From assembly GCA_020444515.1 (NCBI GenBank), contig JAHLKX010000010.1, positions 62,001 through 126,000 of the forward strand: a stretch of DNA of 64,000 bases, written 5' to 3'. The position numbers and the translations under genes are program-made. Shown here in pieces: positions 14,696 through 39,877 of this stretch. The DNA is from Bacteroidota bacterium. Lineage in GTDB: Bacteria; Bacteroidota; Bacteroidia; Bacteroidales; JAADJA01. Below the pieces are notes generated by a model. The model did no database searches. It worked only from the letters and a program-made list of their open reading frames with translations, and was not told the DNA's origin. The number at the start of each line of letters is the position of its first letter. The stretch's first letter is position 1.

Positions 14696-14978
14696 TACAG
14701 GTGCTCTTATAGCAGCTGATGATGATGTTCTTACACAGGCTGGTTAATAGGAAACAAATGCCACTATTATAGATACTATGGCAAATGTTCCTGATGATGT
14801 TCTTGGTGATGCTTATGTAGACGTTTGAAGATATGTTATAAATAGTGTTTTTATAAATACTCTGTATGATCTTATTTAAAAGGATATTACTAATGCTTTA
14901 AAAGAGGTAACGTTTGCAGGTTTTTGTGATATTAGTGCAAATGTTACTACATTTGTAACAGCTAATACAAATACTGCT

Positions 14979-16813: not shown

Positions 16814-16821
16814 TTTAACCC

Positions 16822-20657: not shown

Positions 20658-21407
20658 ATGTATTCATTCGATATAAACCAGTTAAATTTTATAAATAGCA
20701 TATGGTTCCAATTAATATACCCATTTATTGCTAATTTACTTTCTATAATTGCAGGAGCATTTTTATTGGTAAAACTGCTTAAACCATATATTGTTCTTTC
20801 GGAAGTGTTTGTGTACAATAGGATACGCAATAATGATAGATTTTATTACAAATTCTATAACAGATCACTACTACTTAATATCCTTGAAGTTAAATCCTCT
20901 TTTCAAATAGCATACACAAATACTACAGGTAGCCGAATCTTTAAAAAAAACTTAATAGTTGACCAGGGAGCACTAATTAAAGTGAACAAGCGTAATCCCA
21001 AGTCAATTAAATTTAATGGCAACAAATATTACTGTAATAGTAATTCAGCATGGGTAAGAGGTATACCATTGTCCCGTGTAGTAAATCAACTTAAAAAGAT
21101 TAATTCATTTTCTACAAATCCTGAAATCGATTTTGTGTTAAAGATTACCTATAAATCTGAATTAACAGGCTTACAATATAGTCGTAGCAAAAAATATAGA
21201 TTAGCAGACTATTCTCTCGTTGGGAAGACTTACAATGAAATTAAAGCTCTAATAATTGATAAACTTACAAAGGATGGTTTTTTTAAACTTGGTCCAACTG
21301 TCGATATTTCAACACCTGATCAAAGAAATTTAGAAGATCGATTCCAATATATTTACAGAAAAAATGGAATATACTATGCTCGCAATTTTATTAAAAATAA
21401 TGCATAG
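20658..21407 (+). CDS. hypothetical protein with N-terminal TM segment
   Basis: 249-aa ORF, hydrophobic LIYPFIANLLSIIAGAFLLVKLL near the N-terminus. Confidence 0.6.
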   Translation: MYSFDINQLNFINSIWFQLIYPFIANLLSIIAGAFLLVKLLKPYIVLSEVFVYNRIRNNDRFYYKFYNRSLLLNILEVKSSFQIAYTNTTGSRIFKKNLIVDQGALIKVNKRNPKSIKFNGNKYYCNSNSAWVRGIPLSRVVNQLKKINSFSTNPEIDFVLKITYKSELTGLQYSRSKKYRLADYSLVGKTYNEIKALIIDKLTKDGFFKLGPTVDISTPDQRNLEDRFQYIYRKNGIYYARNFIKNNA

Positions 21408-21458
21408 ATAAATAGAACATAAACGATTAATCAATGGGTTTCTTTAAATAATAACATT

Positions 21459-22217
21459 ATGATCTCATATTCAGATATTGAAAATTCACATAAGCAATTT
21501 TATAATAGTTGCTTGTTATCAAATTATGCAATTGCCTGTAATTATTTTACCAAAATTCCAGTATTAAATTTCTTTGTAGATTATTTCGAAGAATTTGATT
21601 ACGACTTTTCTGATCCTATCACTTACTTTGATAATCCACGTGTTAATAATTTCCTCATAACTGCTTTTGGAGTACATTTTTTTTCAAATTTTAATGCATT
21701 TATTAAAGATTATGCTTCGTATAAGGCCAAAAATATATCAATTGCTGATTTGCTTAGTCGCTACGGGCCTATTTTTCATACTCATTTTATTATGAAAAGT
21801 TATAAAGGTATGACCTTACCTAATGAAGTACTTAAAAGTGATATTACAGGCTATTCATTAATTCTTAAATTGCATGATAACATAGATAAACCAGCTTTTT
21901 TAAAAAGTAGGAACACTTGCAATATTCATTTTCTTGGAGAAAAGAACAAAATTATTTCCTCAAAAAATTCGACCCTATTTGCAAGCAATAATATTTCTGA
22001 ACTCTATATGTACTTAACTATTAACCCTGCTCTGATTAATATCTTTGATACCAAAATTCAACATTCATTAACAATATATTGTGAAGAAGGAACAAAACAA
22101 TTTATACTTCGTGATACAAATGTTCCAAATCATAAGTTTTATTTACCATATGATTGGATTGGCCAATTCCAAAACGGTGAAATTCTTTTGTTCGAAAATA
22201 AATCAAATATGCCCTGA
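21459..22217 (+). CDS. hypothetical protein
   Basis: 252-aa ORF, AT-rich coding character, no recognised domain. Confidence 0.55.
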   Translation: MISYSDIENSHKQFYNSCLLSNYAIACNYFTKIPVLNFFVDYFEEFDYDFSDPITYFDNPRVNNFLITAFGVHFFSNFNAFIKDYASYKAKNISIADLLSRYGPIFHTHFIMKSYKGMTLPNEVLKSDITGYSLILKLHDNIDKPAFLKSRNTCNIHFLGEKNKIISSKNSTLFASNNISELYMYLTINPALINIFDTKIQHSLTIYCEEGTKQFILRDTNVPNHKFYLPYDWIGQFQNGEILLFENKSNMP

Positions 22218-22415
22218 TCCCCACGCAGAAAAATTTCTCAATCATCAATCTAAAAGGTATTGCAAGATTAATATTATTAAAGTATAGCAAACAGCTTCGA
22301 AGTCTTGTAGATAAGATCAAAATTGGTTTTAAGGCCACTTGCACATATTTTTTTTATGGTTTTTGCAAATTCATCTCAAAATCTTTATTTTTGCTATTAC
22401 TCAAATCATCTTTCC

Positions 22416-23336
22416 ATGAAAATAGAAAATTTTACCGCAGTATTTAGGAATTTAAACTTCCAAATAATTTTTGAAAAACAACACTTAATTAAAACTTTAC
22501 TCATTTTATTTAGCTTCTTTTCTTTGCACCTTAGTGCTCAAGATTATTACAAAATAATTGGCAAGCAAAGTATCTCCTATCCAGATTTTATTTTGCGATT
22601 TGAAATTCTTGATTTGGATACGCATGTTCCAATTAACAATGCAAGAATTTTTTTTAAGGACAAATATGGAAGAACTCAAGAAGCATTTACAAATGATAAA
22701 GGCATCGTACTTTTTATATATTACGACGGAAACCAATTTGAGGATGGTACATTTGAAGTAAGTATCTCAGGTTATAAATATAAATCCTTACAAGTGGACC
22801 GGTATGATATAACCAGATATATGAGAAATCATGGTTTTTATATGACTCAGCAAGAACCCTGGTCTGATGCAAATAGCAATTCAATTCAGAAAATAATTTC
22901 AGCATTGATTAATGACAATTATACACCTGCTGAATGGACAGGTGGACCAGATTTATATGAGTTTGACATAAAATTACAGAAAATTTACCAAAATCAACCT
23001 TATTCAACCTCTTCAAAAAACGAACAAAGTGATTATAGCAACACATCTGATGATTTATCCTCCTATAATAGCCAAGAAAAATTCTTAAACTCTGAATGGT
23101 TAGTTACCAATACACTTTCTGACGAACAGCCTAAGTTAATTAAATTCATTTCCGAAGGAAAGACAATTTATATTCATAGAAATGGTGCAAGTGAAAATAT
23201 TCCTTGGAGATGGAATGTAGAGAATGGATATTTGTGTATAAACGAAGGCAACGGAGATAAATTAATTTTTAAAGTTAAAGATAGTCAATTAATTAGTGAT
23301 AATGAGGTATTTATATTGGAAAAAAGAAAATTTTAA
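22416..23336 (+). CDS. secreted hypothetical protein: carboxypeptidase-regulatory-like domain plus C-terminal FLNSEW module
   Basis: Signal-like LLILFSFFSLHLSAQ; PINNARIFFKDKYG...DGTFEVSISGYKYKS; internal start preferred over 22323. Confidence 0.6.
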   Translation: MKIENFTAVFRNLNFQIIFEKQHLIKTLLILFSFFSLHLSAQDYYKIIGKQSISYPDFILRFEILDLDTHVPINNARIFFKDKYGRTQEAFTNDKGIVLFIYYDGNQFEDGTFEVSISGYKYKSLQVDRYDITRYMRNHGFYMTQQEPWSDANSNSIQKIISALINDNYTPAEWTGGPDLYEFDIKLQKIYQNQPYSTSSKNEQSDYSNTSDDLSSYNSQEKFLNSEWLVTNTLSDEQPKLIKFISEGKTIYIHRNGASENIPWRWNVENGYLCINEGNGDKLIFKVKDSQLISDNEVFILEKRKF

Positions 23337-23339
23337 TAC

Positions 23340-24410
23340 ATGAGAAAATATTTTTTTATTATTATTTCCTTAATGGTTATAACATTTTCACTTTCTGCCC
23401 AATATTCTGACATTTCATGGGTTAATTTTTTAAATACAAAATGGAAGACTATAGATAATCTTGGAGAGGAGGAAGATGATATATTATTCGTCACAGGAGA
23501 AGATAATAAGGGAATGGTCTTATGGTATTATGATCGTGAAAGAGAATGGAAAGTTAGAGGTTTATGGCATGTTGAAGATGGTAAATTGTACTATACACAG
23601 CTAAATTTCAAGATGGAAATAATGAAAGTCAAAGTCCTTCGAAAAATAGATAATGACACATATATTTTCGCTGGTGAAAAAATGAGTGATGGTTATACTA
23701 AATTTATTAGAGATTATAACATAACAGAAGAGGATGAAAAACAATTTGCCAAAGCACAACAAATGGTGGATTTACTCCCAATTATAAGAAAGGAAGCGGA
23801 AGAAGATAGACGAAAAAAAACCATTGATCCCGAAAAATCTGAAAGACAAACTTGGAATAATCAATTTGATATTTGTTTGGAGAAATATAAAAATGAACAG
23901 GATAGAGAACAAATCTGGGATGACTATACACAGAAGTATTGGGATAAAGGGGAGGTTGTAATTTATCCAAAAGACAATTTTTACGCATCAGCCAGAATCG
24001 ATATTGGCTATATTGTTGGAGTAAAATATTGTTTTTCGAATACAAATGATTTCTTCTATTTTAATAAATTAAACAATACAGTTGGAACTCCGGGTAATAC
24101 AGATTTTTATAAATTCAATTTAAAAACTAAACAAAAAAAAGTTTTATGTATGGGTTTTCAAATTGAAGGAATATTTTTCCAAGGCGAATTTAAAGATATG
24201 TTATTGGTAACTTCTTGGGAGCCTGCTCATATGCAGAAATTTTATCAAATTATAGACGATAATGGAAATGTAAAAAAAGTTATAGGATATAAAAAGAAAG
24301 TCTTTGAGGATGACGTAGCATGGGGAGAACCAGTCTTACAGTTTTTAGATGCCCAACTGCAAAATATAATTAATTCGAAAGAAATCAGACTGACGAAAAC
24401 CAAACAATAA
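23340..24410 (+). CDS. secreted hypothetical protein with FLNTKW module
   Basis: Signal peptide YFFIIISLMVITFSLSAQ; 356 aa. Confidence 0.65.
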   Translation: MRKYFFIIISLMVITFSLSAQYSDISWVNFLNTKWKTIDNLGEEEDDILFVTGEDNKGMVLWYYDREREWKVRGLWHVEDGKLYYTQLNFKMEIMKVKVLRKIDNDTYIFAGEKMSDGYTKFIRDYNITEEDEKQFAKAQQMVDLLPIIRKEAEEDRRKKTIDPEKSERQTWNNQFDICLEKYKNEQDREQIWDDYTQKYWDKGEVVIYPKDNFYASARIDIGYIVGVKYCFSNTNDFFYFNKLNNTVGTPGNTDFYKFNLKTKQKKVLCMGFQIEGIFFQGEFKDMLLVTSWEPAHMQKFYQIIDDNGNVKKVIGYKKKVFEDDVAWGEPVLQFLDAQLQNIINSKEIRLTKTKQ

Positions 24411-24420
24411 AACTTCATTT

Positions 24421-24948
24421 ATGAAAAAACAGTCATGGCTAATTCTAATCTGCATTATTCCATTAATTTTGATGGGGCAAGATAATAACGATCCTAAAAA
24501 TAAAGGTGATGTCTCTTTATTTAGAACAGAGCAAGATTTTATGAATACGGAATGGATTTTAACAAATTATAAATTTTACAATATGAGGATTGTTAAATTC
24601 ATTCCACAAATTCGTTCATATAATGACGAAACCAATTTTTATGGAATGAAAATGTACACTGTTACCTATTATGATAAACGTATTGAGAATACTGATTATT
24701 CTTTCGATTGGTACTTCAAAGATGGCAAATTACATATTAGGCAATTGACTAATAGTGGCTATGAAATATCGAAGTTTAATGTTGATGATAATTGTTTAGT
24801 GGCCAAATTAGATGGAGAAATATGTTATAACGATGGAGAAATATGTTATAAATTAGAAATATATCCTAATATTGAGCAATTCCAAAAGAAAAAGAAAAAA
24901 TTAGATCAAGAAAGGGAAGATATCATCAAAAAACGGAATCAAAACTGA
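24421..24948 (+). CDS. secreted hypothetical protein with FMNTEW module
   Basis: Signal-like WLILICIIPLILMGQ; DGEICYNDGEICYK internal repeat. Confidence 0.65.
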   Translation: MKKQSWLILICIIPLILMGQDNNDPKNKGDVSLFRTEQDFMNTEWILTNYKFYNMRIVKFIPQIRSYNDETNFYGMKMYTVTYYDKRIENTDYSFDWYFKDGKLHIRQLTNSGYEISKFNVDDNCLVAKLDGEICYNDGEICYKLEIYPNIEQFQKKKKKLDQEREDIIKKRNQN

Positions 24949-25071
24949 TTTTAAACTAATGTTTTGCATACTTAGCATTTATCAAGATTTATACTAAATT
25001 GCTATAATTTGATATGAGATATCTTTTATCAATAAAATAAAAAAAGTAGCACAAGTACTCCCAAAGCTAAA

Positions 25072-25192
25072 TAACATAATGTGAGTTATATGCGCAGCCG
25101 CACATATCCAGCACCTCACACCAGCTAAAGCTCCCCTGCCCCATCTCAACGTCAACCCTATTCAAAGCTGGACATATAACAACATTATGTTA
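25072..25192. repeat. long imperfect inverted repeat, attC-like folded site
   Basis: TAACATAATGT (25072-25082) + TTATATG (25086-25092) pair with CATATAA (25173-25179) + ACATTATGTTA (25182-25192); internal spacers 3 vs 2 nt. Confidence 0.6.
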
Positions 25193-25962
25193 AATAGCCG
25201 CTGACCAGCCCAGAGCGGCCTCGCTGTCCAACCGCACTATTTGAGATGTACGAGAAGATTGAGTTTGTAAGCCCTCCATTTCTCCGCCTGCCTCTCTTAG
25301 GCAGCAGCTACACTCCATTACATCACCCACCGCACAAACCAACCCGGCTTCCATTCCGTTGCACTGCCGCCACGTTCACCAGCCAAGCCATTACGGGCTT
25401 ATTTGGCTATCCCTGCTCCATGTGTTCACGTCATTTAAGATCATTAAGGTAGATACTCAGCCCGTATTTAATCTGTTCCGTCATTCCATTTCACTGGACG
25501 CTTACATTCCGTTCAGCAAATGCGTATTTCATGCAACCCTCGAGCCAGTTTAATAATAAGCTATCGCATCGCCCACAACCCACCTCAATGTCCGTGCAAT
25601 AGCCCATTATTTAAACCCCACAATACCCATTCACTTCACTCCATATCCAGCGATCCAGCTTCATTCCATTCCTACACAGCTTAATACCGGCTTCTGTCCG
25701 TTTTTCAAAAGAGTTCACGTTCATATGCAAAAGAATAAAAGTAAAAGGCCAACCCTGAAAAGCAAAAAAGACAAAAACTATCCGACCCTGTATATCCACC
25801 ATCCCTCCAACGCAGGTAGTTTTCCCTTTTTGCTTTGCCATCCCGATTTTTACTTTCATTCCTTTGCGCCGACCCTTCCTTCCACCATCATTTCCCCGAC
25901 CACCACCCCTAAAAGAGAGCGATATGTTATATATTCAATATCTTCGTGTTAAATTAATCTTG

Positions 25963-26146: not shown

Positions 26147-27409
26147 TTAAATCTTAATACTCCGAATCCCAAAAATCCTCTTTTTCTGGATCATCGTTTT
26201 ACTCATAACCACATACCTGACAGCATCCAACCCATGATTAAAATTATCAATCGGCACATTCAGACTATTCCCATCCTTATCAATCTTCCACCGGTAATTT
26301 TTCAACTCCCTGATCAAATTCCTGCTCCTGGCTGTCACCTTAATTTTATATTGCCGAATTTTACTAATCCCTGCCCTGACACTATCCGGTCCCTTCAAAG
26401 CCGGGTGCACATTAAACCCACTCGCATACAACTCCTGAATTGACTTGGGTTCCGCACTGTCTGCCACAACCTCATCCGAAGCATCTATTCCGGCACTGAT
26501 CATTTCCTTTACCAGTTCCTGATTCGTCATTCCCTTTCTATAAAGAATTTCATCCAGGTAAAGTGTATTTTCTCCCATATTTACCCTTACAATAGCGGTA
26601 GGGTCATTTGTAAAGCCCCAGTCTAATCCGTAGCCCAATAACTTACTTTGCTTTGGCATTTCATCAATGATCTCCCAGGAATCATAAATCAAGCCCTCTA
26701 AAACACCTCCCCAAAGCCCAAGTGTATAAATCTTGTAGTAGTTGCCATCAATATCTTTAAATGATTCCAGTAATTCAGCGCTTTGGGGGGTTACATAGGT
26801 ATTGTCCTTATAGGTAGTATGCAAGATGGTTGTATCATCTCGTATACTTTTTACGAAATGGAAATTGCCGTCTGCCTTTTCATACGATTCCTTTGCCGGA
26901 AAAAAATAGGAATTGATCCATTCTGTTTCCATCTCCGGATTAAAGGTTGCTATTTCCTGGATAATACCTCCACGCAGACTGGTCGTTGTTTTCAGGAAGT
27001 CATTGAATCCTATCTCATTCATTTCCTCATACCATACACCGGTAGGATCTTTAATTGATTTCGTTTTGTGTTCTTTATCCAGCCCCCTGGCAATGATCAT
27101 ATTCCCGTTTTTCTTAAATATGATACGAAGCGGGTTTTCTACAAAAGCAAAGTAGTCCATCAATCCATAACTGCTGACAATGTCCTTAATGGTCTGAAAC
27201 TGGCTGTCTTTTATATGGGCATATGCCTTCCTAACAAGAATGATCCTTGAATAGGACTTTCGCATGGTATCAATGATAACTTTCTGGGCAGCAAAATATG
27301 ACTTTGCCGAATCCCTTCCACCATACATCAGGATATACCTGTTTTTATCATTCAGGAGCGGCAGGTAAATCGGGTTGAATATCTTCGGATTCGAGAAATC
27401 TATTATCAT
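26147..27409 (-). CDS. phage terminase large subunit (PBSX-like)
   Basis: LMYGGRDSAKSYFAAQ ATPase P-loop-like, GVWYEEMNEI, GYGLDWGFTNDPTAIV nuclease motif. Confidence 0.92.
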   Translation of the reverse strand: MIIDFSNPKIFNPIYLPLLNDKNRYILMYGGRDSAKSYFAAQKVIIDTMRKSYSRIILVRKAYAHIKDSQFQTIKDIVSSYGLMDYFAFVENPLRIIFKKNGNMIIARGLDKEHKTKSIKDPTGVWYEEMNEIGFNDFLKTTTSLRGGIIQEIATFNPEMETEWINSYFFPAKESYEKADGNFHFVKSIRDDTTILHTTYKDNTYVTPQSAELLESFKDIDGNYYKIYTLGLWGGVLEGLIYDSWEIIDEMPKQSKLLGYGLDWGFTNDPTAIVRVNMGENTLYLDEILYRKGMTNQELVKEMISAGIDASDEVVADSAEPKSIQELYASGFNVHPALKGPDSVRAGISKIRQYKIKVTARSRNLIRELKNYRWKIDKDGNSLNVPIDNFNHGLDAVRYVVMSKTMIQKKRIFGIRSIKI

Positions 27410-27695
27410 TGCTTTGAGGTAACTGAATTACTATTGTTTCTTCGCCAATGGTCATGCTATGGTCAGTCCTGTTTAATTTCGGGATAAAAAAGTCAAGCAG
27501 CCCCGACATGATCCTGAGCCGTTCACCGGGATCAAGTTCCATCAGGTCCAGCTTCATCTGTTCCAGTGAGTAGGAATCAACCAATTGCTGAAACTTCTCC
27601 CTGATAGCCCCTGTAGCCTTATTTTTACTTCCTTTCGGTCGTCCGTTAGAACTACATCCTGGCAAAAACCGTCCTTGCTCATCCCTTTTGTCCAT
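27348..27695 (-). CDS. phage protein upstream of TerL (DUF5681-like)
   Basis: DEQGRFLPGCSSNGRPKGSKNKATGAIREKF; overlaps terL start. Confidence 0.7.
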   Translation of the reverse strand: MDKRDEQGRFLPGCSSNGRPKGSKNKATGAIREKFQQLVDSYSLEQMKLDLMELDPGERLRIMSGLLDFFIPKLNRTDHSMTIGEETIVIQLPQSNDNRFLESEDIQPDLPAAPE

Positions 27696-28125
27696 TTCGA
27701 TAAATTAGTTTTTCTATGCTCGAAACACTCAACCCATATTTCTTTGATAATTCCGCTTTAATGTCCTTGTACTTTTTATCCTGTTTAGCCATCTCATCAT
27801 ATTCCTTTTTGACCAGGGCTTTGATGATCTCTTTTTCACCAACCAGTCCCACATCAATTATTTGCTTAATATCTATCTGGTATTTATCCATAAAATCACT
27901 GGAGAGCATTTCCAATTTTTCAGTCATTTTAATCTTACCTCTTTTTATTGGCTCTTCCGAAATACCAATCTTTAATCTTAACAATCCCCTTTTCAGGCCA
28001 ACAATACTGGTGATGGGTTTACTGTTTTCAGCCAGCAATTTGATGTGTTCATTAATCTTGTCGAGTAACATTCCATAGGCTTTTTTCACCTCTGCATTCG
28101 ATTGTTCTATCGCATATATTCTCAT
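27679..28125 (-). CDS. putative terminase small subunit-like/HTH protein
   Basis: C-terminal HTH DIKAELSKKYGLSVSSIEKLIYRN; position directly upstream of the terminase genes. Confidence 0.55.
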   Translation of the reverse strand: MRIYAIEQSNAEVKKAYGMLLDKINEHIKLLAENSKPITSIVGLKRGLLRLKIGISEEPIKRGKIKMTEKLEMLSSDFMDKYQIDIKQIIDVGLVGEKEIIKALVKKEYDEMAKQDKKYKDIKAELSKKYGLSVSSIEKLIYRNGQKG

Positions 28126-28260
28126 CGCTTTTTTATTGCAAATATAAATATTAAAATCGTATTTTTTGGCAATTTATAATACTGTTTTTTAATTTTTTAT
28201 AAACTTTACCTAAAGCTCAACTTAAAGCTTTTTATTTTTGTGATTATAAAATATCTTGAT

Positions 28261-28416
28261 ATGAAAAAAAGGAAAAAATCTCTTAAAAACGCATCTGATT
28301 CTTCCAATGGGATCTATGGCATTAACGCCAAAAAAAAGAAACTACCCCGCCATCGTTCGGCTGTCCGTTCTGATGTTGCCAACAAAGTCAAAAGTATCAT
28401 TGTCAAAAAAGACTAA
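28261..28416 (+). CDS. 51-aa basic protein (not in ORF track)
   Basis: MKKRKKSLKNASDSSNGIYGINAKKKKLPRHRSAVRSDVANKVKSIIVKKD*; ends 5 nt before the protease gene. Confidence 0.6.
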   Translation: MKKRKKSLKNASDSSNGIYGINAKKKKLPRHRSAVRSDVANKVKSIIVKKD

Positions 28417-28421
28417 TCATT

Positions 28422-29468
28422 ATGAAAACTTATTTTAGGTCAAATACAATCTACAACCAGTCCCTTACCCAAATCGACAGGGCTAATGGGATCATCAAAG
28501 ACATTATTCTTTGTCAGGTAGGTGAAGCTAAAGGTCACGACCTTTTTATCAATAATGACTTTATTGATAAGGTTGTTGAGTTGGGCAATGAAACCAAAGC
28601 AGGCATAAAAGCCCGTTTTGGTCATCCCAATATCTGTTCTACTGCCCTGGGAAGTTACCTCGGCAGGTACAAAAACTTTCGCAAGCAGGATGATAAGGCT
28701 ATCGCTGATTTATACCTGGATAAAACCTCAATAAAATCTCCCAATGGAAACCTTTACGATTATGTCCTTGACCTTGCTGAGTCCAATCCTGATATGTTTG
28801 GAGCCAGCATTGCTTTTAAAGCTGGGAAGGCTGATAAAAAACTGGAAACGATCAATGGTGTGGAGGTCGAAAAGAATTACGCTACTATTGTTGGTCTGTT
28901 TGCTGCCGACCTCGTGGATGATCCTGCAGCTACCAATGGCTTATTTGAAGTACTGCATGAGGATGACTTTGCTTTCCAGGCATCAGTTTTTCTTGATGAA
29001 CACCCGGAAATTTACGAGCTCCTTTCCAAAAAACCGGAAATCCTCAACGAGTTTCTCCGAAACTACGAACAATACAAAACCCGTCAAAAGGTTGAGAAAC
29101 CAGAAACCTCATTCAATCTAAAGGATGAACTAACCAACCTAAAACAATGGATTTCCGATTTATTTTCAAAGCGTGGTCATGCTGTTCCTGAAGAGGCTGG
29201 TCACACTGAGGTGCGAAGCCTCGAAGTGCGTGCGGAGGAATTGAGAACAGAATTTGAATCCCAGTTAAATTCCCTGGAATCCAAATACCTTGACACCATC
29301 AACCAACTCCAAACCGAGTTGAACAAAAGCAAGGCATTCCCAACTGTTCCAGATAAAAAAGCTGATCCTAAGATCAATATTCAAAAAAAGATCAACACCG
29401 ACGATTCCGGCAAAGTGTTGCTCGAAAATATACCGGACAATGTTAAACGTAAACTAAAAAACAATTAA
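28422..29468 (+). CDS. putative capsid maturation protease/scaffold
   Basis: GIKARFGHPN...ATIVGLFAADLVDDPAATNGLFE, with C-terminal coiled coil; immediately upstream of MCP. Confidence 0.7.
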   Translation: MKTYFRSNTIYNQSLTQIDRANGIIKDIILCQVGEAKGHDLFINNDFIDKVVELGNETKAGIKARFGHPNICSTALGSYLGRYKNFRKQDDKAIADLYLDKTSIKSPNGNLYDYVLDLAESNPDMFGASIAFKAGKADKKLETINGVEVEKNYATIVGLFAADLVDDPAATNGLFEVLHEDDFAFQASVFLDEHPEIYELLSKKPEILNEFLRNYEQYKTRQKVEKPETSFNLKDELTNLKQWISDLFSKRGHAVPEEAGHTEVRSLEVRAEELRTEFESQLNSLESKYLDTINQLQTELNKSKAFPTVPDKKADPKINIQKKINTDDSGKVLLENIPDNVKRKLKNN

Positions 29469-29470
29469 TC

Positions 29471-30823
29471 ATGGCTAATATATTCACTCAATCCATCGAT
29501 CCTCCTTTCACCAAACAAAGTGTAAGCGAGTACTTTATCGACCCCATGTTCATGGCCGAAGACATCAGGGGTGCAATTACTGTAAGAACCGACATCAAAG
29601 GAACAGAGAAATTAAACCGCATTTCACGCCCTTCAATGATCACTAAACCAAAGGTCAATCCTGGGTTTTATCCTTCCGGGACATTTGAATTGACAACTTC
29701 TGAAATAACAGTCAAACCCATGGCCATCGAATTTGAACAGAATGGTCGGGAGTTCTGGGGATCCATTGCAGAACAGCTTTTGGCCTCAGGTTATAAAGAG
29801 GATGATGTGGAACAAATGTCTAATCCCGACATCTGGAACAAGATCATGCTCCCCATCATTGCTCAGGCAGGTCAAAATGACCTTGTCCGTCAAATGTTCT
29901 TTGCTGATCCTGTCAATGAAGTATTGGCTACAGGAAAACCCAATGGCACAGTCAATGAAAACTATTCCGGCTACACCGGTTTTCTGACTCACTTCCTTGC
30001 TGATTTATATGCAGGAACTATTCCAGCAGCACTGCACATTAAAATTGACTCTTCTGTAACTCCTGTCAAAGCAGAGAAGATTTTAACTTATACAGCCAAC
30101 ACGGATACAAGGATCACAGTTACCATCAATGGCGTTGATTACAATGAGAATTACGATACAAATGCTACCACTACGGTGGTTAACTGGTTAGCTTCTCACA
30201 AAGCAGCTATCGAAGCCAGAGCCGGTATCAATGGAGTGCTGGTAACCAACCCCTCTGGTGCGCAAATCAAGGTAGTTTCAAAATATGGCGGCCAGTCTTT
30301 CGATTTTACCGCTGTTGCTGATGGTTCAGGTTCATTTGCTCAATCTGGTGTAGTGGCTGCTGTGAAAGCCTCAACTTTGGACACAGATGAAGCGGATGCT
30401 ACCCTCGAACAAATGATCGACAACATGCCTTCTGAATTACTGGAATTAAATCCAATCTTTATGATTACCCGGTCTATGTGGAGGAACCTGTTCAAAACAT
30501 GGAAAAGCCTGGGGACTGAAACAGCCAATGAGATCACTTTCAAAGGCATCAAAGTTCCTACTTATGAGGGTATTCCTATCATCATCCGCCCCGATTGGGA
30601 TATTTGGATCAAGGCATCATTCAATGATATTTTGCCTCACAGGGCAATCCTTACTACTCAAAAGAACCTTTTGTTTGGAACCGATGCCACAACCGACAGT
30701 GAAATGATGGAAACCTGGTACAATCAGGATGAACAGAAAAGGCGTTACAGGGTGCAGTACAAAGCCCAAACCGCCTATTTACATAAAGAACTTGTTGTTT
30801 TAGCAGGCTTCAAGGATGACTAA
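29471..30823 (+). CDS. phage major capsid protein with inserted domain
   Basis: Position between protease and portal; C-terminal YRVQYKAQTAYLHKELVVLAGF; Ig/beta-type insertion near residues 190-300. Confidence 0.75.
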   Translation: MANIFTQSIDPPFTKQSVSEYFIDPMFMAEDIRGAITVRTDIKGTEKLNRISRPSMITKPKVNPGFYPSGTFELTTSEITVKPMAIEFEQNGREFWGSIAEQLLASGYKEDDVEQMSNPDIWNKIMLPIIAQAGQNDLVRQMFFADPVNEVLATGKPNGTVNENYSGYTGFLTHFLADLYAGTIPAALHIKIDSSVTPVKAEKILTYTANTDTRITVTINGVDYNENYDTNATTTVVNWLASHKAAIEARAGINGVLVTNPSGAQIKVVSKYGGQSFDFTAVADGSGSFAQSGVVAAVKASTLDTDEADATLEQMIDNMPSELLELNPIFMITRSMWRNLFKTWKSLGTETANEITFKGIKVPTYEGIPIIIRPDWDIWIKASFNDILPHRAILTTQKNLLFGTDATTDSEMMETWYNQDEQKRRYRVQYKAQTAYLHKELVVLAGFKDD

Positions 30824-30861
30824 ATCTCAGGTAAATGTCTCATTAAATGCCTGTGTGGTGG

Positions 30862-30915
30862 CACTCCCCCTGCTGAGCTTGTCGAAGCAAGGGGGGTGTC
30901 CGCCCACTGGCGGAC
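30862..30915. repeat. REP-like double hairpin between MCP and portal genes
   Basis: CACTCCCCCTGC-TGAGCTTGTCGAA-GCAAGGGGGGTG followed by GTCCGCC-CACT-GGCGGAC. Confidence 0.7.
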
Positions 30916-30927
30916 GGGGGATGTTAT

Positions 30928-32199
30928 ATGTCTTACAAGCTTTTTGAATATAAATATACGCCATTATTAAATTTGTTCGAGTCCGACTTCATCGATCTCG
31001 ACAACGCCTATGATTTTATCCCATTTGGTGAAGATAACCTCATCCCCCAGCAAATTGTCCAATTATCACGGAGTGTAGCTGTTCATAGAGCAATACTTAA
31101 CAGTAAAGCCTTTTTCGTTGCCGGAAATGGATTTGTAACAGAAGACAAAATCCTGTCCGATTTTCTTTTAAAGGTCAATAATTATGATGAAAACCTGCGT
31201 GATGTATTCTTTAAGCTGTTGTTTGATGAATTGAATATTGGTAATGCATACCTGGAACTGATCACTGATAAAAATAAATCCTTTTTAATGCTTTACCATA
31301 TTGACGGAAGTAAATGCAGATTATCAGCTAAGGAAGATACCATTTTGATCCATCCCGATTGGAGTATTTACAAAGGAAAAAGGGATGAACTAACAGAAGA
31401 AATTCCTCTCTATCCATATTACAGTAAGGATGAAAACAAGCTATACCATACTGTTATCCACATCAAACAATACGAGCCGGAATTTTACCACTATGGTTTG
31501 CCTACCTGGTATGCCGGCCTGAACAGTGTGATCATTGCAGGTCTTACTGATGTCTGGAATCAATCAAGGCTGGAAAAACAATTCAATGCATCAGGTTTGT
31601 TGGTCATTCCCGGAGTTAATGATGATAAGGATGCTGAAACCCTCGATGCTGAATTTGATAAGTTTAAGGGTAGTGCCAATGAAAGGAGCCATGACCTGAT
31701 AGTCCAATATCTAAAAGATTTAGGTCCTGGTCAACAAAGGGATGTTGCCCAGTACATCGAATTTAAAACTAATGAGGAAGGCAACTGGATTGAATTACAT
31801 AGGCAGGCACATACAAACTTGTTATCCATTCACAATTGGTTTAAAAGCCTGGCCAGTTTCTTTGGTGAAAAGACTGGTTTCGATACAGCCAGGATACTTA
31901 ACGAGTACGAAATAGCTTTAAATACAACCATCAGGGTTTACCAGTCTAAATACATCAATCTATTCAAAAGAATTTTCACTGATTTTGGTTTTAATCCTGA
32001 TAGTCTGGCAATCACAAATGAAAGTCCTGTTTACCGTATCCACCCCATCAAATATGTCTGGGAAGTTCGCCGTGAAATGGGTCTTGATTACAATCCCAAA
32101 GATCCCAAACAGCAACTATTTTACAGTGAGCTGAAAAATAAATTCACAACGCAAATTGATAAAGATTCAATCGACAATGAAATTGAAAGTACTAAATAA
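30928..32199 (+). CDS. phage portal protein
   Basis: FIPFGEDNLIPQQIVQLSRSVAVHRAILNSKAFFVAGNGF; size and context. Confidence 0.8.
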   Translation: MSYKLFEYKYTPLLNLFESDFIDLDNAYDFIPFGEDNLIPQQIVQLSRSVAVHRAILNSKAFFVAGNGFVTEDKILSDFLLKVNNYDENLRDVFFKLLFDELNIGNAYLELITDKNKSFLMLYHIDGSKCRLSAKEDTILIHPDWSIYKGKRDELTEEIPLYPYYSKDENKLYHTVIHIKQYEPEFYHYGLPTWYAGLNSVIIAGLTDVWNQSRLEKQFNASGLLVIPGVNDDKDAETLDAEFDKFKGSANERSHDLIVQYLKDLGPGQQRDVAQYIEFKTNEEGNWIELHRQAHTNLLSIHNWFKSLASFFGEKTGFDTARILNEYEIALNTTIRVYQSKYINLFKRIFTDFGFNPDSLAITNESPVYRIHPIKYVWEVRREMGLDYNPKDPKQQLFYSELKNKFTTQIDKDSIDNEIESTK

Positions 32200-32210
32200 A
32201 TGAGGGTGCC

Positions 32211-32678
32211 ATGTTAATAACAGTAAGAGAAGTCATAGAATTAGCCTACATAACTTTGATAGATGATAACCTGATCAAGGAGGAAATTATTGACGCTGCT
32301 GAAAAAACCTACATTAAGCCGGTTTTGACTACCGATCTATACAATGGTGTAATTTCCAATCCGGCATCATATACAGCCCTAATTGATCCCTATATCAAAC
32401 CCTGCCTTGCATTTTACGTGAAATACCTTATCTACAGCCAGCAGTTATTTGAAACGGCCGAATATAGTAGCCCCGATCCGACTAAAGGCCCTGAATTGCT
32501 CGACCCTTCAAATGCAGCGCTTATAACCAATGATGTTCATCAGAGCATTATAAAAGATATTTTATTCATTGCCAGGCAAAAGGAAAAAACATTGATCGAA
32601 TACCTCGACAAACAAGCCTTTGAACTACGCCAGGCTCCTACTATAAAAAGAATCAGTGGAATAATAATTAAATCTTAA
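32211..32678 (+). CDS. head completion/connector-like protein (DUF6712-like)
   Basis: EIIDAAEKTYIKPVLTTDLYNGV...YIKPCLAFYVKYLIY, downstream of portal. Confidence 0.65.
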   Translation: MLITVREVIELAYITLIDDNLIKEEIIDAAEKTYIKPVLTTDLYNGVISNPASYTALIDPYIKPCLAFYVKYLIYSQQLFETAEYSSPDPTKGPELLDPSNAALITNDVHQSIIKDILFIARQKEKTLIEYLDKQAFELRQAPTIKRISGIIIKS

Positions 32679-32682
32679 AATC

Positions 32683-32937
32683 ATGAGAAATCAAAATAAA
32701 TTCTTCAGTCCCAACGGCCAGCTTCGCATTGATGATACATTGGTGCACGATGGCGATTGGCACACCATAACGGTCAGTGATGATGCCAGGTTTAATAAAC
32801 TTTACGATGGTAATGTCAATATTTTAACTCGAGATAATTTATCCGGTAAAACCATCAAATACACCGATCAGCCATTAACAGGTCGTTTCACTCAAATTCA
32901 ATTGCTATCAGGTGTTATTTATGCTAACAGAAATTAA
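32683..32937 (+). CDS. small phage structural/decoration-like protein
   Basis: 84 aa, beta-rich, in head operon with 5-nt and 3-nt gaps to its neighbours. Confidence 0.5.
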   Translation: MRNQNKFFSPNGQLRIDDTLVHDGDWHTITVSDDARFNKLYDGNVNILTRDNLSGKTIKYTDQPLTGRFTQIQLLSGVIYANRN

Positions 32938-32939
32938 TA

Positions 32940-33569
32940 ATGCTGTCAAGGAATAACATATCAATCCTTCGTAAATCAATACCTCCTCAGGTAGAACTGG
33001 ACTTTTGTTTACTTTTTAGCGGCAATGGAAACATCAAAATTGATAATTTGAATCAATATGTTGATTATCGTAATGATTTTCAACTTGATATTGAATTTAA
33101 CGTCAAATCCTTTCCCCTCGAAGGATATATGTGGCTGATAAATTCCTGTATTGATGCTGAAAACAATAAAATGGGTACTGCAATTGATGGGGTAAATCTA
33201 TATGTCCAAATTGATAGAGGCTCAGGTGATATATCGGAGCTATATTTGCCTTTTTCTGATTCAGGTTCCTGGCATCAGCTTTCCATCATAAACAATCGAG
33301 GCACATTGTCTGCTGCCCTTGATCACGAAGAGTTACTTTTAAATCATGAACCGGCTCTTCATCTACCCGATTCATTGGGTTTTATACTCGCTGCCAATAC
33401 AGCATTATTGGATGGCCTTATTGGTTATGTTGATAATATCCTGCTTACTGATTTACGGGCCCCAATAGCTCAATATTTATTAAATGAAGGAGAGGGTGAT
33501 ACAGCTTATGACTCCGTCAATGGTTTCAATGGTATCATTACTAAAGGTGATTGGCAATTGCATATTTAA
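32940..33569 (+). CDS. LamG/concanavalin-like domain protein
   Basis: VDYRNDFQLDIEFNVKSFPLEGYMWLINS...GSWHQLSIINNRGTLSAALD...LLDGLIGYVDNILL. Confidence 0.65.
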   Translation: MLSRNNISILRKSIPPQVELDFCLLFSGNGNIKIDNLNQYVDYRNDFQLDIEFNVKSFPLEGYMWLINSCIDAENNKMGTAIDGVNLYVQIDRGSGDISELYLPFSDSGSWHQLSIINNRGTLSAALDHEELLLNHEPALHLPDSLGFILAANTALLDGLIGYVDNILLTDLRAPIAQYLLNEGEGDTAYDSVNGFNGIITKGDWQLHI

Positions 33570-36500
33570 TCCCTCACACACCTTATGCTCAATCCATGTG
33601 TAACCCCAATACCAAGACTCATTAAAAATCCATAATTATAACTTACACCGGTAGCGACAGTCATGCTACCATTTTCAGTTGATGTCCACATATAACTAAA
33701 AGATCCAACATCAAGAACCCAATTATAATTCGGATACCAATTCCCAGCAGGAAGAATACCCATACCAAATTCATTTGTTCCGTAATTTGTAAGACTTTCA
33801 TTCCACCTAGGATGATCTGTTGTATTACACCCCCCCCCAAGAGGTGAATTCACTTGTCTACAAGATTTCAATTTATTAGCGACATTATCTTCAGTAATAC
33901 CTATGAAGTTTGTAACTAAGTATTCTTCTAATTCATCCCATTCGGACCGGCTAGGTATGTGCCAGCCATCAGGACAAATGCCCTGAACTCCACTTGGATT
34001 CGTGTTACTACTTACAGCTCCATTCATTATCGTGCTCCAATCATACAACCCACCATATATATTACAATAATTGGTATCATTATTAATACAATGGCGTATG
34101 ATACTATTTCCAGCGAAATCTTTTGTTGTTTTTATATTTTCAGCCATCCAACACTGATTCCCAATTAAAACAGTATTGTATTGATTCCCGTCAATATCAG
34201 TAATTTGAGTTCCACATTGCAATGTGTCTTCTCCCAATGTACTGAAGGAAATTTCATTTCCGTAAGCCGTGCCCACGCTATTTGTAGCATAAGCACTTAA
34301 ATAATATAAAGTTCCTTGATCTAAACCTGAAATATTTGAAATAAATAAACCAACACCTGAACCCTCAATTGTATGAGCATCCAAAATTGTAGGGTTCTGG
34401 GAAATACTCCAACAAACACCATATGCTGTAACAGGAGAACCTCCATCATTAATTACATTACCACCAGATGTAGCAGTGGTATTAGTAATATTTGTCACAC
34501 CTTCAGTTGTCAGTGATGGTATATTAGGTTGAATTGTTGTGAAAGTTACCTCATTTCCATATGATGTGCCACTATTATTTGTTGCATAAGTTTTAATATA
34601 GTATGTTGTGCCAGGAACTAATCCAGTAATATCATCGTTAAAAACAGTAAGTGAATCAATTGTCCCTAAATCAGTCTTATCATTAAGAATTGTTGGGTTT
34701 GGACTAGTTGACCAGCAATGCCCATATTGCTCAATTATTGAGCTACCAATATTTACAATTTCACCTGTTAAATTTACACTTGTATATGTTATATTATTAA
34801 TACTCCCAGTTAAAACAGTTGATAAGTCTGTGTTTTTTAAACATCTTACTGAATTTCCATCTTTTTCATCTACCCAGTATCCTCTGTTGATTTGATTTGA
34901 ACTGGAATATAACATTCTAAAAATCGGATTTGTCCCACCGTTTCCTGAAGGGTCATAATTAGTTGAAGTCCAGTATAAACCATTATTATACATGCCATAA
35001 AATATGCTTGCTCCGTTACTGGTAGCTTCAAAAATAAAAGAACCTGTAGGTAGTGATGAGAATCCTAGACTATCATTGCCATTAGTGGTTGCAGACCACA
35101 TCCATCCATTAGTGGTCTTTAATTTATAAGCCACATCACTTCCTCTATCATCATCAAATATGTTCCATATTGGGTCCCCAACTCCAAACTGACTATCACA
35201 TGTTCCTTCAAGTATTTTGAACTCAGAATCTGTTGGAATATGCCATCCAGATGGACAAATACCTTGTGTTCCTTGTATTGAAGAATATTGCATCATTTCA
35301 TCCCAATTATATAGTCCGCCAAATAATTCACAATTTATTTCAAGATTATTATAACAATACTTTTCAATAATTCCATTATTCGTTTGTCCTATTTCAATAT
35401 TGGTCATCTTTCCGACATCCATATTTTCTTTAATCCAGCATTGGTCTCCTATTTTTATAGTATTATACCTCTGCCCACCATAATCAACATAGCTAATATC
35501 TTGACAAGGTTGCCCATTAAGTGTTTTTACATGCACTTGGTTGCCATATATAGTTTCACCATTTCTAATAGCATATGCCCGTAAATAATAAACAGTATTT
35601 TTATTTAGGCCTTCTAAAACTCCAGAAAATTCTCCGAAACCATTTCCTAAAGAAATATAGTTATTAATTAGGGTCGGATTTGTTTCAATATTCCAACATA
35701 TTCCTCTATCTTCTACTGCATATCCTCCATCATTAAATATAGTTGCATTACAAAAAATACTTGTTTGAGTTACGTAATAATTTTCTGAAATTTTAATTGA
35801 GTTAATAATATCTTTACTTTGATCATTAATACATCTAGCCGAAAACCCATAACCCATAAGGTTGTTATCATACCTGCCACTTGGATAAAAATGAATCCGC
35901 CTATATATCCCCTCAAGAATATCTATTCCTTTTGTAGAAGTCCAATGTTCTGAATAATCTTCCCATGCATAACTTCCGTCAGGATCAGGGAAACGCATAC
36001 CTGCACCCAATAATGAAAAACCAAATAAGTCATTTCCAACCCAACAAGATTCTGACCTTAAATTCAATCCTGCATCATTGCCACGTTCACCAACTTTATT
36101 CCATTCATCATCTCCAATATCAAAATAACTATCGGCATAACCTTCTAAAATCTTCCAATCATCATCTGTTGCTAAGTGCCATCCTTTAGGACAGGCTTCG
36201 ATGGCACTTTGCCAATCATAAAGTCTACCCTTGTTAATACAATTCGAAATATTATCATCATAGCACCAACTATTTATTGTATTAAAATTCAGATTTTCCT
36301 TGAACCAGCATTGATCACCAATTTGAATGGTATGATATAGTTTTCCATCTCTTTTGTCAACAAAATTTTCCCCGCAAATAAATTTTGGCAACTGAGAAAA
36401 CTTACCAGAGTTTTCATAAATAAAATCATTTTTATCAACATTATTTGTCTGTCCATCAAAATCAAAATCAGAGTTCAAATAGCCATTTTCACCCGCCTCT

Positions 36501-39085
36501 GATTTCCAGCTCAGATCTATATCATGAACATCGATTATGGCGTCGGAATTAGCATCACCGGCAACCATTCCCCATTTTCCGTTATCCAACTGACTATATC
36601 CATCCTCTCCAAGAAATATTGTATTTTCATTTACAGTGAAGTCTACAGGGTATTTATTATTCACTTTAATCAAAGGTTGTGAAGATAAAATTCCCAAATG
36701 GTTACGGTGCCAAATCGCTAAATATAATTCATTTTCAATCAACAAAGAAAATTGTATATTTTCACTTCCATTTTTGTTGATGATCGTTCCATCATCTAAT
36801 AATAAACATGCTTGCCTCACTTTTGGTGCAGCATCAAAAGCGGAATTAGCATCTTCACTATCTCTTAGTTCAAGTAATACCCAGTCAACAATGCTATTTT
36901 CTGTTAAATTAATTGTGCTCTCTGTTCCAAAATAATACCAAGGGAATTTATCAAAAGGTTGATCAATAGGTAATAGTTCTTCGTCAGATAAACTATTAGT
37001 CATATTTTGACTTAGGTAAGGACCCTCAAGGTAAACTTTTGCATTAACATATTTAGGTAAAGGATCAATGAATAACTCAATTTCTTCATCTCCCGATGGA
37101 TATCTTAAATTATCTGTTCCTTGCATAGCTTCAAAGTGATAATGGTGATACCCTTCATTAAATTGATTTGGCTGGGTAGTATAGGTAAAGTGCATTGTAT
37201 AATCCCCAGAAGACTGTCCTTGCATTTGAAATGTTTCATCATCAAATACCAAGTTAACAAATTCAGGTTCAATAAATGGATAAAAATAGTAATAGTAATC
37301 AATGTTAAATTCACGTATTATATCAGATTGTCCACTTTCAGGTTCAACAAATCCGTTTATAATTGAGCAAGCGTCTGTTGTTACGGTTATTTCTGAAGTA
37401 CCGGTCTCACCCTGATCATCTGTTGCCTTCACTTCGATATTATTCAATCCGTTCACTAAATTGATAGTTCCTGTAAAGTTTGGTTCCGAGTAATTTAAAT
37501 TTATCCATGAACTACCATTATTCTTAGCCATAACGCTTAAAATCTCCCTTCCGCAAATTTCACTTGAATAATCAACAGTGCCGAATAAATTTACTTGTGG
37601 TGTACTAATGAATGCTCCATCTTCAGGATTAGCAATATCTATAATTGGGTATGAGGGAGTTATATTCCAATCTTCATTAAATGGTATCCAAAAACTTTCA
37701 TTTGATTGCCAAGGTGTTATATCTGTATAATTCCATCTTGGCCATACACCTCCGTTTATTCCCCACCACTTATCAATAAATGTAAAATCCACATAGAAAT
37801 TTCCCTCATCAAGATTGTCAATTTCATTGCCATCAATTGTTATTACTTCTACAGGATGTTGGGGTTGCCAGCCAGTTGAGGTTGCATCCCATACATGCCA
37901 ATAAACTCTATCATAAGCTGGATCGTTTCTTTTGATTGTAAATCTCATAATAATATAGTCCACGTCACCTATTTCAGGGCTCTCGAAATCAACATCATAA
38001 TTTAGTATTATGTAATATTCATTATCATCCTCATTAAAGTATAAATTAACCCTTAAATATTTCTCAGGGTACATTCCCCAATTATGTTTATAAAATTTTG
38101 TGTATCCCAGATTACATGTACCAGCATATCCAGTTTCGGTGTTTTCAAGCATTTCAATAGCATTATTACTTTCTATCAGGCCCCTAAGACTCTGATAATC
38201 TACACATGACAAAAAATAGCTTATTGGTTGATCAATTAATTGCCATGCAACTTCCATAAATATATTATTAAAAATAACCATTGGAGATGTTGAAGTTAAT
38301 AGTATCGAAGCCTTGGGAATTGTTGTAAGATCACAGAGTGACTTCACAAAATGGTATGCCTCCTGATAACTAAAAGGCTGATTAACAGAAGTATAGCTTA
38401 ACAATTGATCTCCTATATAATACATATAAGTATATTCTGGTAATATTGAATTGAATGAAGCCCCTTCGATTGGCAATGGAAGATCTGCTAAACTTAGAAA
38501 ATTATTCTGCAACTCATATTCATTATAACCTTCAATAGCAATACTTAAGAGCTCATATTTTGAAATTTCTCCTAATAATGCAAATAAATCTTGACACTCT
38601 TCTATGGCTTGGATATGATATGATGTAACTTGCATTGGTGGTACTCTCTCATCTGTCATACAAGGAATTTCCGAATCTTTTGTTGTTTTTTGATAAAATG
38701 AATAGTTAAGTTTGAGCACGTCATTTATATATTTCTCCTGACTATTTTTATCAGAATATACTATGTAAGGTTGATATCCAATTACTGGTAATTTATTTAC
38801 AATATCCTTTTCGTCCTTTATAGCATCAAATTCATTATTAGAATGAATATGAAAAATATTGTATTTTTCTTTTTTTTGAATTATTGAGAATCCATTTTTA
38901 TTATTGAAGTAATCTTCAGCATTAATGGAATCATGTAACTTTATGTAAAAATCACTGGTAAGATAAGTGATTTCATCCTTATTCCAAACGCCTGATTTAA
39001 TTATGGAAAACACATTACTTACTTCCTGTGAAATTATACTTAATGGAATGATATTTAGTAGTATGATAATTACTCTTGTTTTCAT
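33566..39085 (-). CDS. 1839-aa secreted multi-domain protein with three FISUMP (Fibrobacter succinogenes major paralogous) domains, Fn3-like repeats and a dockerin/EF-hand-like segment
   Basis: Repeated YNTxxIGxQCWxxENx...GICPxGWHIPxxxEWxxLE...SxRCxxD; GDANSDAIIDVHDIDLSWKSEAGE; N-terminal signal-like segment. Confidence 0.88.
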   Translation of the reverse strand: MKTRVIIILLNIIPLSIISQEVSNVFSIIKSGVWNKDEITYLTSDFYIKLHDSINAEDYFNNKNGFSIIQKKEKYNIFHIHSNNEFDAIKDEKDIVNKLPVIGYQPYIVYSDKNSQEKYINDVLKLNYSFYQKTTKDSEIPCMTDERVPPMQVTSYHIQAIEECQDLFALLGEISKYELLSIAIEGYNEYELQNNFLSLADLPLPIEGASFNSILPEYTYMYYIGDQLLSYTSVNQPFSYQEAYHFVKSLCDLTTIPKASILLTSTSPMVIFNNIFMEVAWQLIDQPISYFLSCVDYQSLRGLIESNNAIEMLENTETGYAGTCNLGYTKFYKHNWGMYPEKYLRVNLYFNEDDNEYYIILNYDVDFESPEIGDVDYIIMRFTIKRNDPAYDRVYWHVWDATSTGWQPQHPVEVITIDGNEIDNLDEGNFYVDFTFIDKWWGINGGVWPRWNYTDITPWQSNESFWIPFNEDWNITPSYPIIDIANPEDGAFISTPQVNLFGTVDYSSEICGREILSVMAKNNGSSWINLNYSEPNFTGTINLVNGLNNIEVKATDDQGETGTSEITVTTDACSIINGFVEPESGQSDIIREFNIDYYYYFYPFIEPEFVNLVFDDETFQMQGQSSGDYTMHFTYTTQPNQFNEGYHHYHFEAMQGTDNLRYPSGDEEIELFIDPLPKYVNAKVYLEGPYLSQNMTNSLSDEELLPIDQPFDKFPWYYFGTESTINLTENSIVDWVLLELRDSEDANSAFDAAPKVRQACLLLDDGTIINKNGSENIQFSLLIENELYLAIWHRNHLGILSSQPLIKVNNKYPVDFTVNENTIFLGEDGYSQLDNGKWGMVAGDANSDAIIDVHDIDLSWKSEAGENGYLNSDFDFDGQTNNVDKNDFIYENSGKFSQLPKFICGENFVDKRDGKLYHTIQIGDQCWFKENLNFNTINSWCYDDNISNCINKGRLYDWQSAIEACPKGWHLATDDDWKILEGYADSYFDIGDDEWNKVGERGNDAGLNLRSESCWVGNDLFGFSLLGAGMRFPDPDGSYAWEDYSEHWTSTKGIDILEGIYRRIHFYPSGRYDNNLMGYGFSARCINDQSKDIINSIKISENYYVTQTSIFCNATIFNDGGYAVEDRGICWNIETNPTLINNYISLGNGFGEFSGVLEGLNKNTVYYLRAYAIRNGETIYGNQVHVKTLNGQPCQDISYVDYGGQRYNTIKIGDQCWIKENMDVGKMTNIEIGQTNNGIIEKYCYNNLEINCELFGGLYNWDEMMQYSSIQGTQGICPSGWHIPTDSEFKILEGTCDSQFGVGDPIWNIFDDDRGSDVAYKLKTTNGWMWSATTNGNDSLGFSSLPTGSFIFEATSNGASIFYGMYNNGLYWTSTNYDPSGNGGTNPIFRMLYSSSNQINRGYWVDEKDGNSVRCLKNTDLSTVLTGSINNITYTSVNLTGEIVNIGSSIIEQYGHCWSTSPNPTILNDKTDLGTIDSLTVFNDDITGLVPGTTYYIKTYATNNSGTSYGNEVTFTTIQPNIPSLTTEGVTNITNTTATSGGNVINDGGSPVTAYGVCWSISQNPTILDAHTIEGSGVGLFISNISGLDQGTLYYLSAYATNSVGTAYGNEISFSTLGEDTLQCGTQITDIDGNQYNTVLIGNQCWMAENIKTTKDFAGNSIIRHCINNDTNYCNIYGGLYDWSTIMNGAVSSNTNPSGVQGICPDGWHIPSRSEWDELEEYLVTNFIGITEDNVANKLKSCRQVNSPLGGGCNTTDHPRWNESLTNYGTNEFGMGILPAGNWYPNYNWVLDVGSFSYMWTSTENGSMTVATGVSYNYGFLMSLGIGVTHGLSIRCVRD

Positions 39086-39465: not shown

Positions 39466-39857
39466 TAAAAATTTATTCCAAATGAAGAGATGTTTACAGG
39501 TTGTAGGCGCCCTTGTGCGCAGGATTGTTCATTGGATAGCTGTAGGGTTCGATATAAAGCCGCAGAGCCACGATCTCTTTCTGGACGACATGATTATCAT
39601 TAAGAAATTGATCGCCTGTAACAGGATGAAAATCGCAACATCAACCTTCTGATAATTAATTTATTAGATAGGTGAAATTAACACAAAATTGTTCAAAATA
39701 AATTGGGATAGTTCACTAATTTTTATTAATTTTATACTACTTTCGTAGCACGTTCTTTTAGTACTGATCAACCATTCAGAAGGTCACAAATTCGAGACCT
39801 ATCAGAATTATCGATTATAACTATTTGATTATAAGCCCAAAAGGGGAAAGGTTCATT

Positions 39858-39877
39858 CCCCAGCGGGATCACAAAAA
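39858..39877 (+). repeat. attR-like core CCCCAGCGGGATCACAAAAA
   Basis: Identical to 5419-5438 at the tRNA-Lys 3' end; preceded by GGTTC as in the tRNA T-arm. Confidence 0.85.

Follow-up and report, generated by a model that had tools for sequence, protein, structure and literature searches.

Can a phage-like element persist in bacterial genomes when it encodes a head in which to package its DNA and no tail through which to deliver it? This question is raised by a 64,000-nucleotide stretch of a 5.0-Mb Bacteroidota genome, hereafter called the window (G000:C8:62001–126000), in which an integrative element of 34,459 bp, measured from att to att, carries a phage head module. What can be read from the sequence is integration at a tRNA-Lys gene, an integrase accompanied by an excisionase-like gene, and a complete-looking, selection-maintained set of head and packaging genes from which tail genes are missing. 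We hypothesize, giving the idea roughly even chances, that this is a mobile element that makes its own DNA-filled heads, encodes no tail, and likely depends on a helper in the manner of capsid-forming satellites.

The head module comprises a minus-strand group (TerL, TerS-like, p148) and a divergent plus-strand operon that runs from a protease/scaffold gene to p209. Its genes are as follows; BS-TP3 (PQ571276) is a Bacteroides phage and the closest named tailed relative, and C3 is the contig that holds a second such element in the same genome.

26147–27409, minus strand: TerL (Terminase_3, E 1.8e-38; Terminase_3C, 1.8e-20)
27348–27695, minus strand: TerS-like protein (weak DUF5681 match, 0.005, and position; conserved across the lineage)
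27679–28125, minus strand: p148, a protein upstream of TerS that is conserved in the lineage
28422–29468, plus strand: putative prohead protease/scaffold, from position and sequence character only
29471–30823, plus strand: major capsid protein (MCP), homologue of BS-TP3 gp3
30928–32199, plus strand: portal (phrog_11226, E 4.8e-15; Phage_portal, 1.6e-8, just under the cut-off)
32211–32678, plus strand: p155, a connector encoded next to the portal gene (matches BS-TP3 gp7 by profile, E 3e-7)
32683–32937, plus strand: p84, a small conserved protein with a homologue in the C3 element
32940–33569, plus strand: p209, a possible LamG-like adhesin or decoration protein; final gene of the head operon

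This gene set agrees with an initial annotation made from the DNA letters, which had placed TerL, TerS-like, protease/scaffold, MCP, portal and connector genes at 26147–33569 (protease and TerS by position or weak match) and had described the terminase genes as diverging from the capsid operon; the rightward operon spans 28422–33569. The MCP has no direct Pfam or PHROG name. It is 30% identical to BS-TP3 gp3 (E 6e-10) in an equal gene order, and gp3 was itself annotated in its record (PQ571276) by structure comparison with a phage major capsid protein; the AlphaFold model of the window MCP (mean predicted local distance difference test score, pLDDT, only 49) is unusable for fold search, and the call is based on homology together with gene order. 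In the protease/scaffold protein, which has no Pfam or PDB match, alignment reveals a conserved N-terminal half with a GHPN motif and a coiled-coil-like C-terminal half. The connector corresponds in position to gp7, the gene next after the BS-TP3 portal; its model (pLDDT 78) is mainly helical with a C-terminal hairpin and found no fold match in PDB. When profiles of the portal, connector, MCP, protease and p209 were run against PDB, nothing useful came back. The C3 copy of p209 weakly matches the virion structural families phrog_701 and phrog_18802.

Genes were called absent by comparison with Pfam, PHROGs and profiles of BS-TP3. By this measure no tail or lysis gene was recognised between the att sites, and the tail tube, tape measure and baseplate genes of a complete tailed temperate phage are not among the element's recognisable genes. 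Profile scans of the head-module genes and the unassigned cargo genes gave no tail family, save two hits. That of 28422–29468 is at chance level only (E 0.09); a ‘minor tail protein’ match covers part of a secreted 1839-aa protein described below.

A more pointed comparison is with BS-TP3, whose gp3, gp6 (portal) and gp7 are homologues of the window MCP, portal and connector. Both BS-TP3 and a prophage in genome G382 hold six tail-region genes, gp55–gp60, between terL and the protease gene, and the gp60 homologue in G382 has matches to tape-measure families. When gp4, gp5, gp7 and gp55–60 were compared, profile against profile, with 161 open reading frames (ORFs) of eight head-only loci, gp7 alone found a match; in six further head-only loci it was again gp7 alone. 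As a control, the same method detected gp60 (1e-106) and gp59 (3e-6) in other distant, tailed relatives. The initial claim that no tail genes lie between the att sites is thus upheld by the profile scans and by these controlled tests. In a tree of portal proteins, the BS-TP3 group splits off from all others at a fully supported branch; on the other side, the head-only loci stand together with the G004/G127 group, and monophyly of the head-only loci is left unresolved. An MCP search of phage and plasmid records gave no match.

Another key observation to emerge is that this head module occurs twice in the same genome. The C3 element, of 38,106 bp, lies at a tRNA-Arg between bounding repeats (att core GAGTCCTCCCGGGATCACA), and its head module is identical to the window's in layout and order, although the two integrases share only 31% identity and the C3 cargo, a primase-helicase and Hma-type defence genes, is unlike the window's. 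(In the C3 element, at L009 9628–18481, we noted an HmaA-like helicase, 3e-210, an HmaC-like ATPase, 1e-117, and a DUF1156 methyltransferase.) Between window and C3, identity is 93% for TerL, 91% for MCP, 82% for portal, 68% for p84, 64% for protease, 62% for connector and 32% for p209. Synonymous divergence is high to saturated, the head-gene reading frames are intact in both elements, and the ratio of nonsynonymous to synonymous substitution rates (dN/dS) is 0.04 for MCP, 0.07 for TerL, 0.08 for protease, 0.13 for p84 and 0.14 for p148; TerS (0.33) and p209 (0.45) evolve faster. The fast evolution and last position of p209 are what an adhesin would show. Judged by these ratios, the tail-less head module is kept by purifying selection. 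As far as gene comparison can tell, it is a head kit common to elements whose integrases are only distant relatives and whose cargo differs; since it is present in two different elements and many relatives, under purifying selection, it is not a deletion product.

Those relatives number about 26 at full length (MCP at least 60%), with up to four in one genome; they come from IMG/VR (L007), which was covered by one scan with the portal query, from a Loclat Bacteroidales metagenome-assembled genome (MAG) that has two copies, from one contig in a Gracilibacteria MAG, from genomes G565, G715 and G765, and from the G751 family. Most sit on short contigs. In the G751 family an MCP match is present in 10 of 43 genomes, and a single genome may have as many as four copies. 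Because 396 genomes sampled across the phylum yielded no full-length MCP except in the window's own genome, the distribution is patchy. The initial annotation had suggested looking for the same layout in other genomes: the divergent TerL and protease–MCP–portal–connector arrangement is retained in nearly all relatives for which context was read, the exception being G1126:C165, which looks broken up. We also noted an MCP with stop codons (L045, G765:C15), so single copies of the head module do decay; a head-module contig binned in a Candidatus Gracilibacteria MAG (L023, JAOZLT010000055), where misbinning is likely; and 11.6 kb, head module included, that is 99.95% identical between L043 and G751, from MAGs assigned to different families, which reflects either recent transfer or assembly contamination.

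In the G751 family, which is not that of the window's genome, the head operon continues into p115, a 405-aa beta-roll fibre (fibre405), a small transmembrane protein, an endolysin and spanin-like genes. The endolysin is of GH108 type in G1121 and G1122 and of GH24 type in G1120, identifications supported by phrog_315 (5e-32), phrog_7 (1e-47) and PDB lysozymes; p115 and the fibre are conserved. The G1121 element, of about 19 kb, starts with an integrase next to tRNA-Ser and closes with a spanin-like gene, after which host genes follow. First come the integrase, an excisionase, a possible replication gene, an exonuclease and restriction-modification (R-M) genes; then follow TerL–TerS–p148, protease, MCP, portal, connector, p115, fibre, transmembrane protein, GH108-type endolysin and spanin-like lipoprotein. 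There is no space for a tail module, tape measure or tube; its right att site was searched for and not found. At the corresponding position after the head genes, L021 and G565 have other fibre genes. Since the relatives with fibre, endolysin and spanin-like genes share the tail-less module, having no tail characterises the lineage as a whole. From their gene content some members look autonomous, and the lineage may include self-lysing, tail-less phages. In the window and C3 elements we recognised neither lysis genes, in keeping with the initial report of no holin or endolysin, nor homologues of p115 and fibre405; no relationship was detectable between p84 and p115 or between p209 and the fibre.

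The remaining features of the window element are these:

5360–5433, plus strand: tRNA-Lys (TTT), integration target (ARAGORN, Rfam)
5419–5438: attL core, CCCCAGCGGGATCACAAAAA, direct repeat of 39858–39877
5669–6943, plus strand: tyrosine integrase (Pfam Phage_integrase 3e-15, Arm-DNA-bind_5, SAM_5)
7159–7431, plus strand: excisionase-like helix-turn-helix protein (phrog_66 and phrog_7735, excisionase)
7478–8260, plus strand: possible replication initiator (weak HTH_36, Pfam E 0.03)
8699–19974, plus strand: defence cargo, namely type I R-M (HsdM, HsdS, HsdR), a GmrSD-type restriction protein and a DUF6577/AbiEii pair (Pfam, PADLOC)
19974–20648, plus strand: YgjP-like metallopeptidase that closes the cargo operon (Pfam 8.6e-57)
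20658–24948, plus strand: five genes without assignment, AT-rich (28–30% GC)
25041–25902: conserved non-coding region 3′ of terL (68–98% identity to the C3 element)
33566–39085, minus strand: 1839-aa secreted protein with Fib_succ_major (FISUMP) domains, facing the head operon
39858–39877: attR core, direct repeat of 5419–5438

The 20-bp att core is the final 15 bp of tRNA-Lys plus 5 bp beyond; between the tRNA 3′ end and 39850–39877, 25 of 28 nucleotides agree, including the 20-bp identity. The att sites, an integrase and an excisionase, and an extent of about 34 kb with a large defence cargo had all been noted at the outset. The accompanying claim that phage replication genes are lacking is less certain: 7478–8260 occupies the slot held by the primase-helicase in C3. 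The excisionase-like protein has a 35% homologue in C3, whereas the five genes at 20658–24948, several of which have signal-peptide-like starts, have no counterpart there; the ORF at 24421–24948 contains two exact 20-bp tandem copies (GATGGAGAAATATGTTATAA) at 24811–24851. Both the window and the C3 element are surrounded by clustered secreted proteins with FISUMP domains, and related ones occur outside too. We considered them as virion spikes and disfavour this: given the signal peptides and the relatives outside elements, the 1839-aa protein is probably secreted cargo and not a virion part. In the congener G005 (L144, G005:C79:250900–270899) another element occupies the same tRNA-Lys with different cargo and related integration genes (integrase 64%, excisionase 67%, HTH_36 protein 40%), which marks this tRNA-Lys as an integration hotspot with exchangeable modules; a portal match was sought in that genome and none was found. 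An empty tRNA-Lys or tRNA-Ser site was not demonstrable among congeners because their host flanks are not conserved.

The non-coding sequence at 25041–25902 was found only in the two elements of the window's genome; the window, C3, G751, G1121, G1120 and G1122 elements have a conserved non-coding stretch, about 1 kb long, on the 3′ side of terL. The window region has folding z values of −3.5/−5.1 and an inverted repeat, TAACATAATGT at 25072 and ACATTATGTTA at 25182, with near-equal spacing in C3. Across six relatives the region shows long nested stems in which 23 pairs have both partners changed in one sequence or more, with an overall covariation term that is unfavourable and no Rfam match at gathering score. 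It is a candidate packaging site or large structured RNA.

How, then, might such elements spread? Under the helper-dependent reading, induction would cause the window element to excise and replicate, its DNA of about 34 kb would be packaged into its own heads, a co-resident or infecting helper phage would supply lysis and probably tails, and the R-M and abortive-infection cargo would repay the host for carriage. Lacking lysis genes, the element most likely needs a helper for lysis and, by analogy, probably for tails. Searches of the window's genome found neither a PhageMin_Tail protein nor a Terminase_6N gene, and no further Terminase_3 gene; any helper would therefore be a phage that infects the cell, or else a prophage of a kind outside those searches. 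Several points weigh against this account: fibre, endolysin and spanin-like genes in G1121, G1120 and G1122 mean that helper dependence does not simply describe the lineage; p209 may be an adhesin of the element itself, and a tail thief would have no use for one; no helper was identified; and both att sites were identified only in the window and C3 elements. The initial proposal of a capsid-forming satellite therefore stands as regards a self-contained, tail-less head module in a defence-laden integrative element, and its satellite status is unsettled by the relatives with lysis and fibre genes. Those same relatives favour a different reading, a serious possibility that we nonetheless lean against: autonomous temperate phages that are tail-less (or have connector and spike), whose head docks by a fibre fixed to the vertex of portal and connector and injects its DNA with no tail tube. 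On this view the window and C3 elements would be variants that use another adhesin and whose lysis genes have been lost or go unrecognised. The compact G1121 element, running from integrase to lysis genes with host genes next, the confirmed endolysins, and the conserved p115 and fibre all speak for it; yet no attR was found for the G1121 element, neither the window nor the C3 element has fibre405, a p115 homologue or recognisable lysis genes, and the literature searched offers no precedent for an HK97-type phage that lacks tail tube and nozzle alike. Its fullest form, which we find rather doubtful, is a Bacteroidota lineage of autonomous temperate viruses, once tailed phages, with an HK97-type head, portal, one connector, exchangeable adhesin, own replication and lysis, about 19–38 kb and multiple copies.

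It is improbable that tail proteins are present and go unrecognised, for example a very short podovirus-like tail built from p84, p209 or the 20.6–24.9 kb genes. The first two lack an identification and the five cargo genes have no match, but these five are missing from C3, several with signal-peptide-like starts; the G1121 element has no room for a tape measure or tube; and the controls above demonstrate that the profile method detects divergent tail genes. Decay of a prophage that lost its tail module, which the initial annotation had held to be the main alternative, is very improbable indeed: in tailed relatives the stretch from terL to the protease gene does hold tail genes, and the G765:C15 copy is broken, but the tail-less module recurs in about 26 loci with intact frames and different integrases, and dN/dS is 0.04–0.14 for most head genes. 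Full prophages had also been expected among relatives if a tail module had simply been deleted; tailed ones exist (BS-TP3, G382), and the tail-less loci contradict recent deletion. Recent decay is thus rejected, while ancient loss followed by selection fits the other readings; under either the helper-dependent or the autonomous reading, tail loss in this lineage is likely ancient. Sequence by itself cannot choose between these two: the helper-dependent reading best fits the window and C3 elements, and the autonomous one best fits the fibre-plus-lysis members.

The lineage looks like a set of little-known, head-building mobile elements, not broken phage, and literature searches turned up no description of it. 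Head-only, multi-copy and defence-laden, it extends the capsid-forming strategy to another phylum. Such elements could move defence systems between hosts, and could explain metagenomic head genes that never adjoin tail genes. Fibre and lysis genes without a tail raise the question of whether an HK97-type phage infects tail-less or wears the tails of other phages.

Among known systems, BS-TP3 and the G382 prophage share homologous MCP, portal and gp7-type connector; BS-TP3 differs in its 57.5-kb size, in gp55–60, in a ClpP-type protease and in having gp4/gp5 in the interval from MCP to portal. The Streptomyces satellites MulchRoom and MiniFlayer encode their own heads and packaging functions; MiniFlayer also has a tail fibre gene and shows podovirus-like short fibres, and MulchRoom apparently uses its helper's tail (PMC10690885). 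MiniFlayer is the nearest precedent for an own head with an own fibre. Both satellites lack replication genes and parasitise virulent phages, whereas window-type elements integrate, and replication genes are present in those of C3 and G751. Capsid-forming phage-inducible chromosomal islands (cf-PICIs) are defined by an integrase, own TerS/TerL, protease, MCP, portal and connector, and no tail genes (as quoted in PMC10690885); they are known mainly from Firmicutes and Gammaproteobacteria and average 14 kb (PMC10803314). The window element resembles them in site-specific integration by its own integrase (tRNA-Lys att repeat), in its own MCP, protease, portal, connector, TerS and TerL (protease and TerS by position or weak match), and in having no tail genes. 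It departs from them in size (window 34,459 bp, C3 38,106 bp and G1121 about 19 kb, against about 14 kb), in its Bacteroidota host, divergent terminase, single connector and large defence cargo, and in a head module in which the packaging HNH endonuclease gene was not recognised; absence of lysis genes holds for window and C3 and fails for G1121, G1120 and G1122. The match is thus one of logic, and not of size, phylum, HNH gene or lack of lysis genes in relatives (PMC10690885, PMC10803314, PMC11389934). We suggest that the window element would work like a cf-PICI, without filing it as one: it is likened to them by gene content, not by sequence homology.

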